In this document: positions 11,519-19,782 of the stretch, piece by piece
Position numbering within the stretch: position 1 is the first letter of the stretch
Layout: every line of letters starts with the position of its first letter
NCBI GenBank assembly: GCA_035544215.1
Contig: DATKHY010000007.1
Location: forward strand, 310,001-374,000
Source of the DNA: Candidatus Binatia bacterium
GTDB taxonomy: Bacteria; Vulcanimicrobiota; Vulcanimicrobiia; Vulcanimicrobiales; Vulcanimicrobiaceae
DNA: 64,000 nucleotides
Direction of reading: 5' to 3'
Program-made: the position numbers and the translations under genes
Notes under the pieces: model-generated
Databases searched by the model: none
The model's input: the letters and a program-made list of their open reading frames with translations, nothing else
Told to the model about the DNA's origin: nothing

Positions 11519-14256
11519 GCTGCTCGGGACTGTTCAGCGTCCGCCTTCGCCGCTCCGTCCTGGCGCTGGGCGTTATGCTTGTGACAACGCTGGTCATCGG
11601 AATGCGAGCCAATGCCGCGGAGCTAACGACCGGCGCGATCATCGGGCGCGTGCAGACCGGCGCCGGCGCGCCGATCGCGAACGCGCGAGTGGAGGCACGA
11701 TCGGCGTCAGGGCGCTACGCCGCGACGACCGACTCGTCCGGCGCCTTCGTGATTCTGGGCATCGCACCCGATACGTACGACGTCACCGTGCGCGCGGGCG
11801 GCTTCGAGCCGGCCGGCGACGTCGCGATCATCCTGCCGGGCGAGCGCGAGCAGCTGACGTTCACGCTGCGACCTGCCCTCAAAGAGATCGCGCGCGTGGA
11901 GGCCAAGGGCGAGGCATTCTCGGTCGGCAGCACGAGCGATACGTTCACCGTGACGGGCGACGCGGCGCGAGCGTCGTTTCCCGACGCAAACTCCTCGGGC
12001 TTGGCGAACTACGCGCAGGGCTCGGTTCAGGGAGCGATCGCCGGCGTGCCGGGCGTGCAGCTCGACACGTTCGCGAACGCGGTCGTACGCGGCGGCAAGG
12101 TGCAAGACACCGTGTTTGACTTCGATTCGGTTCCGATTCCGCAAGGCCTGATCGCCGAGCCCGGCGGCAACATCGTCGGCGCGCAGCTGGGCACGGCGGG
12201 CGTCGGCGCGACGACACTGACGCTGGGCGGCTTCACCGACTCGAGTCAAAACGCGCTGGGGGGCGTCGTGAACGAGATCCCAATGGTCGGCACCTATCCC
12301 GCGCGTTCGACGTTCGACGTCGCGACAGGGATCGGCGCGCAGTACGGCGCCGTGGACGCGAGCTCGCAGTGGGCGACGCCGGACCTGCGCTGGCGCTACG
12401 CCGTCGGCGTGACTTCTTCTAACGCCTACTTTCCCTACGGCGACGGCGTGACGTTCTATCCGTCGGAGATGGGCACGTACGGGCTAGCTTTGCAGACGCG
12501 GGCGGCGACGGCTTGGTCAGGCAACGTGCACTTCGCGCCGAACGATAGCAACGACTTTTCCGCCACTTTCCTCGCCGGCGTCGCCACGTACGACCAGTAC
12601 GACACGCCTTATGCCGGTGAAACGTGGGCGACGTTCAACTCGAAGTCGACCTTCTTCCCAGGTCAGCCCGCCGACCCCAACGCGCAGGTCGACACGCCGT
12701 CGCGAGCGCGCGGCACCTATTTCGTAGCGAAGCTGCAATGGCTGCATCGTTGGGCACACTCCCTGGGACGCGTGTACGTCTATCAGTCACAGGTTGATGC
12801 GATAGCGAACGGCCCGTTTTGGGACGACCTCTCCTTCCCCAACGGCGTGATCTCGCTGTGGTCGCAGCAGAGTCAGCGGCAAGACGGAATCGGCTACGAC
12901 TTCGACGATCAGGCCGGTGCCAAGCACGACTTCCGGGGCGGCGTCCAGTACGCGGTGAACACGAGCAACCTCGATCAGCTCGTTCCGACTGCAGACGAGC
13001 TCGTCACGTCGAATCCGCGTCTGGATCAGTACCTGCTCTACGCCGGCGACACGTGGTCCGTGGACGATCGCTTCAACGCGAACGCGACGCTGCGGCTCAC
13101 GGGCGAGAACGTGCTGAGCGGCACGGGCATGGCGTATGGCGTGGACGCGATAGACCCGCACCTCGCCGCTACGTACACGCTCGGCGAAGCCGGCGCCGTG
13201 CGAGCGACGTTCGATCACACGTCCGTCGCGCCGCTTCCCTTGGAAGTCCGGCGGACTGACTCCGCCGCGCCGGCGACGCCGATCACGCTGGCGCCGGAAA
13301 CGGCCGACGACTACAGCCTCTCGTACGAACACGCCGGGCCGATGCAGGTGCGGCTGACGTACTATGCCGAGCTCGAGAAGAACCGCATCGACGTCTTGCC
13401 GCCGAACCTTCGCGCGACGTCGCAGAATCCCAACGCGGTTGGAGTACCGACCAACGCCGGCCTGCTTCGATCGCACGGCGTGGGGTTGTTCGTCAAGCGC
13501 GGCGGACTGCAGCTCACGGCGAACTACGATCGTACGTATACCTCGAGCGTCGATCAGTTTGCGTACAACGATCTCAACCCGGCGGCGATCGCAGCCGGCC
13601 ACCTCTATCCTGCGGGTTACGTTCCCGATTTCACCGCGGTGCTCGGCTACGAGGTCGGCCTCATGCGCCGGCGGCTGCGCGTCACGCCGTTGCTCTCCTA
13701 CGAGAGCGGCTATCCGTACGGCAACGGCACAATGGTGTGGATCCTCAACCCCAAGACCGGCGCGCCGGAATTAGTACCCAACGACAATCACGTGAACCCC
13801 GGGTATAACTATTACTTCCTGAGGAACCCGGCGCTTGGGTACAATGCGGTGGCGAACCCATATATCGCAACACTCGGCACCGCAGAGGGCAGCGATCCGA
13901 ACACTCTGCGAACCGCGCCGCAGACGCTCGCCTCGCTGCACGTTGAGCTGGACCTGTCGCAGCACGTGACGGCGATGCTCGACGTCTCCAATCTCTTTGC
14001 GGACGGCGCGGCTACGCAGATGCAAGGCAATCCCTATCTCATCGGACCGCCGGGCTACACGGGGGGCGATCTTTTGTACGAGAGAGCATACGGAGCTCAG
14101 TACTGCAAAGGTTGTCTCTACACGCTCGGCAACGGCGTAGCGACGAACGACGGGCGCATGCAAATCGTGCCGTGGACGTACGGAGCGGCCGGGTACGTGC
14201 CGCAAGCCTATCCGATGGCTCGCACGGCGCAGATCCGGCTGCGGTACCGCCTCTAG
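11509..14256 (+). CDS. TonB-dependent receptor-like outer-membrane protein with carboxypeptidase-regulatory-like domain
   Basis: 915 residues from ATG 11509. The signal peptide has 'RLRRSVLALGVMLVTTLVIG' and a cut near 'ANA'. Residues ~40-130 form a carboxypeptidase-regulatory-like beta-sandwich ('GAIIGRVQTGAGAPIANARV', 'TTDSSGAFVILGIAPDTYDV'). A plug-like region follows ('AGVPGVQLDTF'), then a long barrel rich in Tyr/Trp-ended strands ending 'AQIRLRYRL'. This architecture belongs to a large outer-membrane transporter family in environmental phyla. No exbB, exbD or tonB is in the window, and the ligand is unknown. ATG 11572 is an alternative start that avoids overlap with the divergent gene. 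Confidence 0.8.
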   Translation: MTARCSGLFSVRLRRSVLALGVMLVTTLVIGMRANAAELTTGAIIGRVQTGAGAPIANARVEARSASGRYAATTDSSGAFVILGIAPDTYDVTVRAGGFEPAGDVAIILPGEREQLTFTLRPALKEIARVEAKGEAFSVGSTSDTFTVTGDAARASFPDANSSGLANYAQGSVQGAIAGVPGVQLDTFANAVVRGGKVQDTVFDFDSVPIPQGLIAEPGGNIVGAQLGTAGVGATTLTLGGFTDSSQNALGGVVNEIPMVGTYPARSTFDVATGIGAQYGAVDASSQWATPDLRWRYAVGVTSSNAYFPYGDGVTFYPSEMGTYGLALQTRAATAWSGNVHFAPNDSNDFSATFLAGVATYDQYDTPYAGETWATFNSKSTFFPGQPADPNAQVDTPSRARGTYFVAKLQWLHRWAHSLGRVYVYQSQVDAIANGPFWDDLSFPNGVISLWSQQSQRQDGIGYDFDDQAGAKHDFRGGVQYAVNTSNLDQLVPTADELVTSNPRLDQYLLYAGDTWSVDDRFNANATLRLTGENVLSGTGMAYGVDAIDPHLAATYTLGEAGAVRATFDHTSVAPLPLEVRRTDSAAPATPITLAPETADDYSLSYEHAGPMQVRLTYYAELEKNRIDVLPPNLRATSQNPNAVGVPTNAGLLRSHGVGLFVKRGGLQLTANYDRTYTSSVDQFAYNDLNPAAIAAGHLYPAGYVPDFTAVLGYEVGLMRRRLRVTPLLSYESGYPYGNGTMVWILNPKTGAPELVPNDNHVNPGYNYYFLRNPALGYNAVANPYIATLGTAEGSDPNTLRTAPQTLASLHVELDLSQHVTAMLDVSNLFADGAATQMQGNPYLIGPPGYTGGDLLYERAYGAQYCKGCLYTLGNGVATNDGRMQIVPWTYGAAGYVPQAYPMARTAQIRLRYRL

Positions 14257-15461
14257 GTCTCGGCGCCGGCGAGGCGCTCGCTCCAGCGGATGCGGCCGGT
14301 CAACTGCATCACCGCAAATAGCGTGACGATCGCGCCGACCGTGATCGTGAGGCCGCTCCAGCCCTCGTTAAAGAGCGCGTACGAGAAGAGGACGAGGTAG
14401 ATCAGCTGCGCGAGCCCGCTTTCGACCGCCGCGAACCTCCAGCCGACCGCGAGCCGCAGATATGAGATCGTCAGGAACAGCGTGACCGCCGAGCAGATGA
14501 CGAAGGCGGCCTCGACCGGAATTCGGTCGACGAGATACGCGAAGAGCAGGTGAAACGAAAAGAACGACGCGGCCAGGAAGAAGTAGTTGATCGGGTGCAG
14601 ATCGACCTTACGCAGCGTTGTGATCACCAGCATCACGAAGAAGTAGAAGAACAGCGCGACCGGCGCCCAGAACGTGATGCGCTGCGCGAGCGGTCCCGGC
14701 TGGAGCGGATAGGGAAACGCCATGCCGATGCCGTTGCCGGTCACGAGCGTCCCATAGTGCCAGTCGAGCCGCCAACCCTTGGGGAGCCTGTGCTCGGCGA
14801 GGGGCAGCAGCGTCTGCGGCGGGAAGTCGATCGCGTCGAAGTCCGTCCGCATCGTTAGCGCGAAGTCCCGAACCAACTCGACATCGTTACCGAAACGATA
14901 CGTCCACGTGCCCATGCCGCGCGACGTATACCGGATGTCGATAAAGGTTTCCGCTCCCGGCGGCAGATCGAAGCCTACGTAGCCCTGGTCCAGCGCGGTC
15001 GGGTCGGTCACGCGTTCCCCGCCGATCGAGCAGGCGAAGTTCGCGTAGGTGCCGTCGCTGGAGGGGAATGGGAAGTGCACGGAGAGCTGCCGGCTCTTCG
15101 TGTCGTTGCGGAGGCGATAGTGCGCCACGAAGGCAACGTCGTAGAGATTGTACCAGAGCAGTCCGTCCCGCCGCTGCTCGAGATGCAGATTGACCGCGAC
15201 TCGGCTGCGGCTCAGCGGCACCGCGACGTCTTGGTAGCCCCGTTCCACCCGCTTCTTGTCCTTGTTGTAGGTGTCGACTGCCACGCGCGCGTTCACCTGA
15301 GGCGCCAGCTGCGTCTGGGCGCTTCCCCATTGCGCGCTGAGCTTCTGGCGCTGGCTCTCGTCGGACGATGCCGTGCGCTGCACGAGCGTCGCCCCCAGGA
15401 TCATCCAGGCCACACCAGCCGAGCAAAAAATGAAGGCGATGGCGATCAGGCGCTTGAGCAT
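14253..15461 (-). CDS. CreD-like inner-membrane protein
   Basis: 402 residues. One N-terminal helix is followed by a large periplasmic beta-rich part ('VAHYRLRNDTKSRQLSVHFP', 'GYVGFDLPPGAETFIDIRY') and then six or so C-terminal helices with 'PINYFFLAASFFSFHLLFAYLVD', the most conserved CreD segment. CreD is linked to envelope integrity and beta-lactam response in proteobacteria. There it is controlled by CreBC through TTCAC direct repeats, which are absent here; two tandem palindromes lie upstream instead. GAGGGG sits six bases before ATG 15461. It overlaps the end of the converging receptor gene by four bases. Confidence 0.8.
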   Translation of the reverse strand: MLKRLIAIAFIFCSAGVAWMILGATLVQRTASSDESQRQKLSAQWGSAQTQLAPQVNARVAVDTYNKDKKRVERGYQDVAVPLSRSRVAVNLHLEQRRDGLLWYNLYDVAFVAHYRLRNDTKSRQLSVHFPFPSSDGTYANFACSIGGERVTDPTALDQGYVGFDLPPGAETFIDIRYTSRGMGTWTYRFGNDVELVRDFALTMRTDFDAIDFPPQTLLPLAEHRLPKGWRLDWHYGTLVTGNGIGMAFPYPLQPGPLAQRITFWAPVALFFYFFVMLVITTLRKVDLHPINYFFLAASFFSFHLLFAYLVDRIPVEAAFVICSAVTLFLTISYLRLAVGWRFAAVESGLAQLIYLVLFSYALFNEGWSGLTITVGAIVTLFAVMQLTGRIRWSERLAGAET

Positions 15462-15487
15462 GCGGTACCCCTCGGCGTCGGTCAGTT

Positions 15488-15526
15488 ACTTTGCACTGCA
15501 AAGTCATTAACTTTGTATCACAAAGT
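15488..15526. promoter_or_regulatory. Two tandem palindromes, probable operator for creD and the TIR gene
   Basis: Palindrome 1 is ACTTTGCA-C-TGCAAAGT (15488-15504). Palindrome 2 is ACTTTGT-ATC-ACAAAGT (15510-15526). Both are perfect and share the half-site ACTTTG. Their centres are 22 bp apart, about two helical turns, so two dimers could bind the same face. The block is 27 bases from the creD start and about 50 from the TIR gene start. The cognate regulator is not in the window. Confidence 0.75.
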
Positions 15527-15577
15527 ATCGACCGGCGCAAGGCCTTTCCGATGAGTGGGCTTACGCGAGGAAGCAGG

Positions 15578-18247
15578 ATGGGCCGCCGCGCCGGGCGGAC
15601 CAAGCGGGGGATGAATCGCGACGTGTTCATATGCCACGCGAGCCCCGATGCTCGGACCGCCGAGGATATCTGCGCGCGCCTCGAATCGGACGGCGTTCTT
15701 TGCTGGATCGCGCCGCGCGATCCGACGGCGGGAATTCCGTACGCCCAACAGCTCGTGGGCGCGATCGAATCCACCCGCATTCTTCTGTTGGTCCTTTCAG
15801 CGCATGCCAACGCGTCACGCGCGGTTCTCAGCGAGGTGGAACTCGCGTCCAACCGCGGCAAGATCGTCTTGCCGGTGCGCATCGACGACGTGCCGCCTTC
15901 GCCCGGTCTCGAGTTCTACATCCGCGCGATCCACTGGTTCGACGCGACGCGGCCGGCAGAGCTCGCGTGGGCGGAGCTCGTGCGCCAAGTGCGCGAGCTC
16001 ATCGGGAGCGGCACCGAAGCCGCACCGGTCGTTCAAGCGCCGAGGATCGCGCAACACAACCTGCCGCTGGCGCTCACCTCGTTCGTCGGTCGCGATGCCG
16101 AGATCGCGCAGATTGAGAAGCTGCTGCAGTCGTCGCGCCTCGTGACGCTGTGCGGCCCCGGCGGCATCGGCAAGACGTCCCTCGCGATCGCCGTCGTGAG
16201 GCGGAATCTCGACGCCTATCGTGACGGTGCATGGTTCGTGGACCTCGCGCAGGTGCACGACGCCGCATCTTTCCTCCAGGCCTTCGCCGCGACGTTCGGT
16301 CTGCAAGAATCGCCGAGCCGCGAGACGATCGATCTGGTGATCGCTCATCTCAAGAACAGGCGAGTGCTGCTCGTCATCGACAACTGCGAACAGGTCGTCG
16401 TCGAAGCCGCGCGGATCGTCGAAGCGATCCTCCAAGCCTGCCCTTACGTCATAGTGGTCGCCACCACGCGCGAGCCGCTCGACATCCGTGGCGAAGAGGT
16501 GTTTCGCGTACCCTCGCTCGCCGTGCCCGACGAACGTTCGTCGCGCACGCTGAGCGCGGCGGCCGCGCTGGAGTACGGCGCGATCGAGCTCTTTGCAGAT
16601 CGCGCGCACGCCGCCAATCGATCATTCGCTCTAACGGATGAAAACGCGCCGGCGGTCGCGGCGATCTGCCGTCGGCTCGACGGCATCGCGCTTGCCATCG
16701 AGCTTGCCGCGGCGCGCGTGAAGGTGCTCTCGGTAAAGGGCGTCGCGTCCAGTCTCGACGAGCGCTTCGCGCTGCTCACCGGCGGGTCGCGCACGGCGCT
16801 CCCGCGGCAGAAGACGCTCCGGGCGATGATCGATTGGAGTTATGATCTGCTTTCGGAAAGAGAGCGCGTGCTGTTCCGCGGCCTCGCCGTCTTTGCGGGG
16901 AGCTTCACCCTGAGCGAGGCCGCGGCTGTCATAGAGCTCGAGCCGTCCGAGATACTCGATCGGCTCGCGTCGCTCATCGACAAGTCGCTTCTGCAGGCCG
17001 ATTTCACCGTCGAACCAACGCGGTACGCGCTGCTCGAGTCGATGCGAGCTTACGCGAACGAGAAGTTGCGCGAGCACGGAGAGCTCGCGTCGTTGAATCG
17101 CGCCCACGCCATGGCCTTCGCGGCTGCCGCCGAGGAATTGGAACGCGCGTTTGACACCATACCCGATGACGCCTGGCTGCGGCTTGCGGAGCCGCAGCTG
17201 GATAACTCGCGCGCCGCGCTGCGCTGGGCATTCGGACCGGACGGCGACGTCGCCCTGGGGCGTCGCCTCGTCGCCGCGTTGCGCCCGACCTGGTTCGCGA
17301 TGGCGCCGTCGGAAGGACAGCGCTGGATTGCGGTCGCGTTGGCGAGCCTCGACAGCGCGACTCCGACGGCGATCGCCGCTAAGCTTGCATTGTGCGAGGC
17401 GCATCTGGCCATGGTTTCCCAACAATACACCGCTGCGCTCCCGCAAGCGGAGCTGGCGAGTCAGCTCTTCGGCGAGCTCGGCGATCGCCAGGGAAGAGCA
17501 CTTGCGAACATGTTCGCGGGCGCAGCTCTCGGCATGCAGGGCGAGGTCGCCGAGGGAACTTCGCTGCTACAGGCTTCGCTGGAGGAGTTTCGCGCGAGCG
17601 GGTCGCGCCGAAACAGCGCCGCGGCGCTGAACTATCTCGGCATCTGTCAGCTGGTCTCCGGCAACGTCGCGGCCTCCCGCCCCTTCTTCTTCGAGGGGCT
17701 CGACTTACTGAAGTCCATCGGAGCGGCGCGACCGGCGGCCCACGTCGCGTCGTATCTCGCCGAGGCGGCGTTTCAAGACGGTGACCCGGCCGATGCCGCG
17801 CGGCTAGTTCGCGAGTCCCTGAGCGCCGAGCGGCGCCTCAACGAGCCAGATATGGTCGCCTTCGTTCTCTGCAACCTCGCCGCGTATCTCGTCGCGCTGG
17901 ATTCGTGGAACGACGCTCGCGACAGCGCGCAGGAGGCGCTGCAGCTGGCTCTCGACCGCGAGATCCCTGCGGCGACGGTCTGGGCGCTCCACCATCTCGC
18001 TGCGATCGCGGCGCTGCGCGCCGGCGACGACGAAGCGCAGGACCGGCGGCGCGCCGCGCGCCTCGCGGGTTTCGTCGACGGCCGCATCGCCGAACTGAAC
18101 CTTCCGCGCAACTTCACCGAGCAGGCCGAACACGAGCGGACTAGCGAAGCTATCGGCAATGCACTCGGTACCGAGGCCTCCGCGCTCAAGGAAGAGGGGC
18201 GAGGCTGGAGCGAGTCGCGCGCCGTGGAAGAAGCGCGCGCGATTTAG
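15578..18247 (+). CDS. TIR-STAND ATPase-TPR protein
   Basis: 889 residues from ATG 15578 (GAGGAAG upstream; ATG 15551 and 15611 are alternatives). Residues ~12-155 are a TIR_2 domain ('DVFICHASP', 'GVLCWIAPRD', then 'SAHANASRAVLSEVELA', whose Glu88 or Glu86 fits the catalytic Glu of TIR NADases). A STAND/NB-ARC-like ATPase follows: Walker A 'CGPGGIGKTSLA' near residue 193, Walker B 'VLLVIDNCEQ' near 265, sensor 'VATTREPL', GxP-like 'LDGIALAIELAAARV', then a winged helix ('WSYDLLSERERVLFRGLAVF'). The C-terminal ~300 residues are TPR-like. The layout fits an inducible NAD-consuming sensor or a signalling protein; which one is inference. Confidence 0.85.
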   Translation: MGRRAGRTKRGMNRDVFICHASPDARTAEDICARLESDGVLCWIAPRDPTAGIPYAQQLVGAIESTRILLLVLSAHANASRAVLSEVELASNRGKIVLPVRIDDVPPSPGLEFYIRAIHWFDATRPAELAWAELVRQVRELIGSGTEAAPVVQAPRIAQHNLPLALTSFVGRDAEIAQIEKLLQSSRLVTLCGPGGIGKTSLAIAVVRRNLDAYRDGAWFVDLAQVHDAASFLQAFAATFGLQESPSRETIDLVIAHLKNRRVLLVIDNCEQVVVEAARIVEAILQACPYVIVVATTREPLDIRGEEVFRVPSLAVPDERSSRTLSAAAALEYGAIELFADRAHAANRSFALTDENAPAVAAICRRLDGIALAIELAAARVKVLSVKGVASSLDERFALLTGGSRTALPRQKTLRAMIDWSYDLLSERERVLFRGLAVFAGSFTLSEAAAVIELEPSEILDRLASLIDKSLLQADFTVEPTRYALLESMRAYANEKLREHGELASLNRAHAMAFAAAAEELERAFDTIPDDAWLRLAEPQLDNSRAALRWAFGPDGDVALGRRLVAALRPTWFAMAPSEGQRWIAVALASLDSATPTAIAAKLALCEAHLAMVSQQYTAALPQAELASQLFGELGDRQGRALANMFAGAALGMQGEVAEGTSLLQASLEEFRASGSRRNSAAALNYLGICQLVSGNVAASRPFFFEGLDLLKSIGAARPAAHVASYLAEAAFQDGDPADAARLVRESLSAERRLNEPDMVAFVLCNLAAYLVALDSWNDARDSAQEALQLALDREIPAATVWALHHLAAIAALRAGDDEAQDRRRAARLAGFVDGRIAELNLPRNFTEQAEHERTSEAIGNALGTEASALKEEGRGWSESRAVEEARAI

Positions 18248-19169
18248 CGTACTCGCGGCGATCGCGTTTCTCGCGGGCTGCGCGAGTCCGAGTCAGCTTG
18301 CGACGCCGGGCATCGCCGTTAAAAACGGCGTCGCCGCGCGTTCAACGGATCTGCTCTACGTCTCGGACCTGGGGTCGAACAGCGTTGACTATTTCACGTA
18401 CCCCGCCTTGAAGGCCGTCGGGAAGCTGACGGGATTCGGTTCGGTCGCGGGAGTCTGCTCGAACAAGGGCGGCGACGTTTTCGTGGTGGACGAGGCGGGG
18501 CCAGTCGTCGTCTACGCCCACGGCGGTACCCAGCCGATCCGGAAGCTGCAAATCCGCGGCGCTCCATACGGTTGCGCCGTCGATCCCGTTACAGGTGACC
18601 TCGCCGTCACGAACCTGTCCGCGGTGCTGTACGGCACTGTCACGATCTACGCCCATGCCAAGGGCAAAGGCAAGATCTACGAAGACTACAAAGTCGGAAC
18701 CACCGATTTTTGCGCCTACGACGGCAAAGGCAACCTGTTCATCGACGGCTCGAACCTATCGGCGCAGTTCGTCCTCTTGGAGCTGCCGAAGGGCGGCCAC
18801 GGGTTTCACACGTACAGCCTTACGCGGTCGGTCAAGAACGCAGGCGGCGTGCAGTGGGACGGCAAGTACGTCGCGATCTCCGACCGCGGCGCGGGCGTGA
18901 TCTACCGCACGACCACGACCGGCAAGGTCGCGCAGGTCATACGGCTCAAGGGTGGCCCCCAGGTCGACGGGTTCTGGCTCGCGGGGGCGACGCTCATCGG
19001 GCCCAACGCGCAGAGCGGCGGCGCCGTCGCCTTCTGGCACTACCCGGCGGGCGGCGCGCCGATCAAGACGATGCGCGAGTTTCTCGAACCGTACGCCGCG
19101 ACGATCAGTGCGTCTGCTGGAACACTGAGGCCGGAATCGGCTGATTCAGCTGATAGTTCCCGTAATTGA
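18159..19169 (+). CDS. Beta-propeller lipoprotein (intact member of a local family)
   Basis: 336 residues from ATG 18159, the only in-frame start, overlapping the end of the TIR gene by 89 bases. A long basic N-region precedes the hydrophobic core and the lipobox 'LAGC'. The body has propeller-like repeats ('LLYVSDLGSNSVDYFTYP', 'GDVFVVDEAGPVVVYAHGG', 'GCAVDPVTGDLAV', 'FCAYDGKGNLFIDG', 'VQWDGKYVAISDRG', 'VAFWHYPAGGAPI'). The same motif series, in the same order, occurs in the broken copies at 20210-21152 and 30386-30879. Function is unknown. Its 3' end overlaps the converging gene by 65 bases. Confidence 0.75.
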   Translation: MHSVPRPPRSRKRGEAGASRAPWKKRARFSVLAAIAFLAGCASPSQLATPGIAVKNGVAARSTDLLYVSDLGSNSVDYFTYPALKAVGKLTGFGSVAGVCSNKGGDVFVVDEAGPVVVYAHGGTQPIRKLQIRGAPYGCAVDPVTGDLAVTNLSAVLYGTVTIYAHAKGKGKIYEDYKVGTTDFCAYDGKGNLFIDGSNLSAQFVLLELPKGGHGFHTYSLTRSVKNAGGVQWDGKYVAISDRGAGVIYRTTTTGKVAQVIRLKGGPQVDGFWLAGATLIGPNAQSGGAVAFWHYPAGGAPIKTMREFLEPYAATISASAGTLRPESADSADSSRN

Positions 19170-19782
19170 TCGTCGCGTTGCCGCTGTAAGCGGGGAAGTG
19201 TGCGACGACCGTCGCGCTGCGCGCAAGGCGATATTGCGAGATGCCGGTGTGGTGGATGAACGTCACGACGAGCGAGGCTCCGTTGTTGTAAGCAAAGTTG
19301 ATCGACTCGATGACGTACGTGGTGGCGCTGACCGACATCGTCATGCTCTTCACGCGGCTGCCGGACTTCTTCGGCGTACCGGTTAGGACGTAGGCGGTGT
19401 GGTGCCCGTGCGGCTGCGAGGCCGGCGCGGAGATCGCGTAGTCGCGCAGCCAGGTCTGCGGCGTTCCCATCGTCGAGAGCGTGTCACCGAGCCCGCGTGC
19501 GTAACTCGGCGGGTTGTTGAGGTGCAGCGCCTGCTGGTCTGGGGCCTTGTAGTACTGCGTCCCGGTCATGTGAACCGGCACCGAGATGATCGCCACGCGC
19601 ACGCTGCCGGCGATCGTGACCGGCACCTGATACGAGCTGAGGCCCTGCCATTTGGCCTCGCTGCGCTGCAAGACCGTCGCCGCGTCGAGCGGAGCCGAAG
19701 GCGGCGTCGGCGCCGGAGTGGCGCCGGTCGCGAGCATTAAGGCCACGAGTGCCGGCACGTTAAGTCGTTGCGATGGAATCAT
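19105..19782 (-). CDS. Secreted LolA-like protein
   Basis: 225 residues from ATG 19782, with AGGGGGT upstream. The signal peptide ends near 'LATGATPAPTP'. The mature part starts 'ATVLQRSEAKWQGLSSYQVPVTI' and continues with alternating strands ('MTGTQYYKAPDQQALHL', 'VKSMTMSVSATTYVIESINF', 'INYGNYQLNQPIPASVF'). This is the pattern of outer-membrane lipoprotein sorting (LolA/LolB-like) beta-sheets, in which an early helix is followed by an antiparallel half-barrel. No LolCDE partner is nearby, and many such proteins in environmental phyla have no proven sorting role. Confidence 0.6.
   Translation of the reverse strand: MIPSQRLNVPALVALMLATGATPAPTPPSAPLDAATVLQRSEAKWQGLSSYQVPVTIAGSVRVAIISVPVHMTGTQYYKAPDQQALHLNNPPSYARGLGDTLSTMGTPQTWLRDYAISAPASQPHGHHTAYVLTGTPKKSGSRVKSMTMSVSATTYVIESINFAYNNGASLVVTFIHHTGISQYRLARSATVVAHFPAYSGNATINYGNYQLNQPIPASVFQQTH

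Follow-up and report, generated by a model that had tools for sequence, protein, structure and literature searches.

Tandem palindromes at a creD promoter as predicted operators of an HTH_34 winged-helix repressor of an envelope regulon in Candidatus Eremiobacterota

Among the described systems with which the locus studied here can be compared are the HAAS-PadR-like winged-helix dyads, for which a role in envelope stress has been proposed (excerpts of PMC11237479), and the PadR repressors of Listeria, which act on membrane proteins including an FtsW/RodA homologue (excerpts of PMC6624303). As far as these excerpts describe them, our locus shares with both a gene for a small stand-alone winged-helix repressor next to one for a multi-pass membrane protein, as well as a link to envelope genes and autoregulation; in our case the repressor, the link, and the autoregulation are predicted. 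It differs from them, as they appear in the same excerpts, in that the regulator proposed here fits best HTH_34 and not PadR, and in that its predicted targets are uppS and creD. The 198-aa membrane protein encoded in the operon of this regulator matches no Pfam family at E 0.01, and hence does not match DUF1700/HAAS. An AlphaFold model of an HTH_34 orthologue (monomer, pLDDT 80.7) is a winged helix whose closest solved fold is 1UB9 (PH1061), which suggests the same fold as that of the winged-helix repressors of MarR/ArsR type. Palindromic operators over the -10 region are common in repressors of this type, and the operator predicted here is likewise a palindrome over a -10 region. In contrast, the content of the regulon and the tandem spacing of two or three helical turns at creD are unlike those of the MarR/ArsR-type systems. 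In proteobacteria, the site of the CreBC system is a TTCAC direct repeat. The gene creD is a target there, as it is predicted to be here, and the loss of CreD harms the envelope in Stenotrophomonas (both according to excerpts of PMC4689548). No description of the regulon outlined below was found in open-licence PubMed Central papers.

The features of the analysed stretch of DNA (64,000 nucleotides in its full length, referred to as the window) and the candidate regulator gene of the same genome are as follows.

14253-15461, minus strand: creD, encoding an inner-membrane envelope-integrity protein, the predicted controlled gene (PF06123, E 1.2e-14)
15488-15504, minus strand: predicted operator site B, reading ACTTTGCAGTGCAAAGT on the creD strand, just 3' of the predicted transcription start; partner site at 15 of 17 creD promoters
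15510-15526, minus strand: predicted operator site A, reading ACTTTGTGATACAAAGT on the creD strand; contains the extended -10 TG-A-TACAAA and is kept at creD and four other gene classes
15512-15517, minus strand: predicted creD -10 element, TACAAA preceded by TG-N (direct reading and TG-N-TA orientation counts)
15535-15540, minus strand: predicted creD -35 element, TTGCGC, 17 bp from the -10 (TTG statistics over A-type sites)
15536-19101, no strand: block missing at this place from the related genome G012, in which the gene on its far side directly follows the creD promoter (14263-15535 and 19102-19500 align to adjacent G012 DNA)
15578-18247, plus strand: divergent TIR-STAND-TPR gene, probably not an ancestral target (Pfam TIR_2, STAND/NB-ARC NTPase and TPR)
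Own genome (G000), C7:174011-174367: HTH_34 gene, 119 aa, in the operon 198-aa membrane protein - HTH_34 - uppS

Direct reading of the window confirms the coordinates and letters of the two perfect tandem palindromes given by an earlier sequence-only reading: ACTTTGCA-C-TGCAAAGT at 15488-15504 and ACTTTGT-ATC-ACAAAGT at 15510-15526, with 22 bp between their starts. The palindrome pattern has two matches in the window versus none in 100 shuffles, and in the whole genome (3,230,016 bases) the exact ACTTTG-N3..7-CAAAGT is represented by these two palindromes only. The same reading had seen no TTCAC direct repeat, and indeed the exact CreB-type TTCAC-N6-TTCAC is absent from the window, the single match with one mismatch, at 14539, being set against a chance mean of 1.96. 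Thus, unlike in the case of CreBC, the creD promoter is devoid of the TTCAC repeat here, and both the operator and the regulator that we propose are of another type.

A search of the order with ACTTTG-N5-CAAAGT yielded 122 sites in 63 of 103 genomes, compared to 5 for the backwards control. When the pattern was made slightly stricter, another family of the same class was positive throughout (14 of 14 genomes); beyond the class, one family had it in 5 of 6 genomes, and two single genomes had it as well. Five gene families account for 109 of the 122 sites: the membrane-protein/HTH_34 operon, which often carries uppS (40 sites), stand-alone uppS (27 sites, 25 assigned by tblastn start and 2 by ORF), a class of small exported proteins (19 sites), creD (16 sites), and a membrane protein of about 95 aa (7 sites). 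One further site is at a contig end beside a tricorn-like gene, and 12 have no assigned gene. Of the 40 sites at the membrane-protein/HTH_34 operon, 38 are located where the membrane-protein gene begins and precede the HTH_34 match by 515-708 bp; the other two, in genome G080, are elsewhere in the operon. The start codon of uppS follows the site by 4-6 bp in 27 of 27 cases. Of 33 sites read in the other family of the class, 25 have one of the same gene classes downstream. Comparison of these loci shows that the putative operator is conserved, in a fixed orientation, upstream of creD, the HTH_34 operon, stand-alone uppS, and two small envelope-type genes, and that the predicted regulon is a conserved feature of a class of Candidatus Eremiobacterota. 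The sequence-only reading had proposed to look for the site in relatives upstream of creD homologues and of a winged-helix regulator gene; it is conserved at the former, the operon of such a gene carries it as well, and the sites are not scattered at random across the genomes. Among the 13 own-genome loci read for matches with one or two mismatches (L006-L018, 8 further match places being left out), only the HTH_34 operon (L017) has a homologue of a regulon gene.

The small exported or anchored proteins that are a frequent target of the site (L126, L150-L165, L294-L297) showed no Pfam match, as judged from one member scanned in full. Two other genes were considered and dropped. The dxs gene is near six sites, being directly downstream only in G058, where the promoter-like element faces away from it, and about 0.8-1.2 kb off at the others. 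A tricorn-protease-like gene, considered as a prime target, lies opposite uppS at a distance of 39-67 bp from the uppS sites; where the centre of the site is asymmetric, the -10 points to uppS instead. The divergent arrangement of this gene and uppS across the operator occurs at 24 sites (L124, L130, L140, L148, and others), a tricorn-like gene being present at 27 sites in all.

The assignment of creD is based on a PF06123 match of 54.4 bits (cut-off 23) in the C-terminal part of the profile; CreD is also the best match in NCBIfam, yet below the cut-off of that model. The predicted promoter of this gene is supported by the properties of its counterparts. Among the 127 distinct A-type sites whose flanks are long enough, 116 have a TTG 13-16 bases before the site, versus 6 of 127 at mirror positions; when the TTG is at -14 or -15, TACAAA follows after a spacer of 17 or 18 bp. 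Site A has an asymmetric centre, in which TG-N-TA is directed toward the gene assigned to the site in 48 cases and never away from it; this count concerns the 68 assigned of 117 sites read, the remaining 20 having a different centre, and it derives from a first regex classification that assigned no gene to 49 of the 117 sites and serves for orientation and start distance only. Results of this comparison show that site A overlaps a predicted sigma-70-like promoter (TTG, 17-18 bp, TG-N-TACAAA), and the covering of the -10 element by the operator speaks for repression. The messages of uppS and of the HTH_34 operon, whose start codons come about 7-8 nt after the -10, are probably leaderless; creD has a leader, and site B is within it.

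Tandem pairs of sites are present at 15 of 17 creD genes, including that of the window, with a spacing of 22 bp in nine cases, 21 bp in one, and 29-32 bp in five (upstream regions were read for 16 of the 19 other creD genomes, G093 and G096 being left out and G011 cut). A single site is found only at creD of G045 and at the broken creD of G069. A second family of the class has tandem pairs too, at a CreD identity of 46-51%; in four pairs there the distance is 29-31 bp. As the comparison shows, two or three helical turns separate the two putative sites at creD. The shorter and the longer spacing are about one helical turn apart, which fits a pair of dimers bound to the same face of DNA, and the conservation of the pair at 21-22 or 29-32 bp supports the earlier proposal of a repressor that acts as two dimers, side by side on one face of the helix.

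The segment 15488-15504 scored terminator-like on the plus strand, as would be the case if the palindromes were RNA hairpins or a terminator and not protein-binding DNA. We find this explanation hardly credible, as the conservation extends beyond pairing to the letters themselves, those of the half-sites being nearly invariant in the 127 A-type sites (although most of them were fixed by the search pattern itself), as site A overlaps promoter elements, and as the start codon of uppS and of the HTH_34 operon is almost adjacent to it. In three genomes, creD is split, TAG-interrupted, or fragmentary, with the operator sites kept (G010 C20:87835-88897, G023 C9:23360-24553, and G069 C16:43458-43733). 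A plasmid search with CreD gave no match.

The most likely start of the divergent TIR-STAND gene is 15578, immediately preceded by a ribosome-binding-like GAGGAAG, and not the TTG within the palindromes. The sequence-only reading had suggested that one repressor could control both divergent genes, and thus a bidirectional switch by which envelope stress would be connected with a TIR effector. While the end of the operator is 51 bp before the likely TIR start, and a repressor bound there could affect a divergent promoter, our results do not support this part of the proposal, and we regard such a switch as quite unlikely. In G012, the closest relative, the same creD promoter is present without the TIR block: the 3.57 kb that hold the TIR-STAND gene are absent from that place, which indicates an insertion or rearrangement, and the G012 orthologue (73% identity) is at C77:1-1509, about 4.8 kb from the creD site. 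Upstream of TIR, the homology between G012 and the window begins only at 15573, after the operator. The TIR-STAND orthologues of G012 and G024 (59-73% identity) are not at a site, the two of G024 being on contigs without sites, and no TIR-STAND gene was found in the DNA retrieved around 16 further creD loci (the G012 copy lies outside the retrieved part). Additionally, the oriented promoter elements within the operator face creD only, and no sigma-70-like promoter toward TIR was found when scanning for a strict consensus, a criterion that does not detect the creD promoter either. The simplest account is that the TIR gene was brought next to an older creD operator by a rearrangement whose breakpoint coincides with the -35 element, and the TIR-STAND gene looks like a recent arrival, a later neighbour of this operator. 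Its STAND-NTPase/TPR relatives are very numerous in the own genome and in the order, with 27 first-look candidates in the own genome and 45 in G024; most of the listed matches cover the NTPase-TPR part only.

The candidate regulator matches PF13601 with 58 bits (E 1.1e-15, cut-off 27), far better than PadR, for which its 26.7 bits are just below the cut-off of 27. Its own operon carries the same operator upstream, both in the own genome and in relatives. In the own genome this operator is GCTCTGTGATACAAAGT, with 15 of 17 consensus letters and the start codon 6 bp further on, and there is no clear second site. In the loci read, HTH_34 is the only regulator gene that is recurrently attached to the site. 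Among the 103 genomes, 59 have both the exact site and a close HTH_34 orthologue, 4 the site only, and 19 the orthologue only, while in 21 both are missing (Fisher p 1.5e-7, without correction for kinship); orthologues were counted at E below 1e-30 with the addition of two fragments (G006 and G055), and weaker paralogues of about 28-42% identity were left out. At a completeness of at least 90% (60 genomes), the respective numbers are 40, 1, 11, and 8. Many of the 19 genomes with an orthologue and no exact site show degenerate sites, and in several genomes that lack an exact site the degenerate one occupies the same place. All 10 genomes of genus g11 are without the site and without a close HTH_34 orthologue, and each has a single UppS.

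Possibly, the palindromes are operators of another regulator, the HTH_34 operon being merely one of its targets. The sites without a close orthologue in G016, G072 (94% complete), G084, and G092, which have to be explained by another protein or by a gap in the assembly, are in agreement with this, as is the presence in the own genome of another HTH_34 gene and a further weak match. We consider it improbable, if slightly less so than the bidirectional switch, because, among the loci read, no regulator gene other than this HTH_34 gene recurs with the site, and site and gene are missing together in 10 of 10 g11 genomes. The other HTH_34 gene of the own genome belongs to a second membrane-protein/HTH_34 pair (L003, C7:714754-717993), which is followed by a gene encoding an ABC-transporter ATPase, is devoid of the ACTTTG site, and presumably represents a paralogous dyad with another operator.

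We therefore favour, with good though not full confidence, the explanation that the palindromes are adjacent operators for dimers of the 119-aa HTH_34 protein, a predicted repressor of an envelope regulon and of its own operon. Dimers bound to site A would hide the -10 element, those at site B would cover the start of the transcribed region, and the two together may give cooperative repression. The 198-aa membrane protein adjoins the HTH_34 gene, and both queries match at 71 of 106 loci, those of other targets included; its model is poor (pLDDT 56), so that a sensor role is suggested solely by its position in the operon. Such a protein might report an envelope or lipid-carrier signal and release the repressor, so that envelope stress would relieve repression by HTH_34, and CreD and undecaprenyl-diphosphate synthase would rise together. 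UppS makes the undecaprenyl carrier, which, along with the envelope damage on CreD loss in Stenotrophomonas, makes the regulon read as one of envelope and lipid-carrier supply.

The analysis provides a little-studied phylum with a predicted operator, regulator, and regulon, and suggests that UppS, and thus the supply of the wall lipid carrier, is under joint control with CreD by a one-component repressor. More tentative, and in our estimate somewhat short of an even chance, is the full picture of a class-wide regulon for the homeostasis of the undecaprenyl carrier and the envelope, in which a membrane sensor of the state of either would trigger the release of HTH_34 from operators that form part of the core promoters, the leaderless uppS and the regulator's own operon would respond at once, creD would be held by a stricter two-dimer operator, and TIR-STAND, dropped beside the switch in this one lineage, would possibly be coming under the same control. 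The motif is carried also by large genomes (7-8 Mb) of family f14, which belongs to another class (L288-L292); some of its sites are in tandem, 25-27 bp apart, and one of them (L291) is near an HTH_34 homologue of 48% identity.
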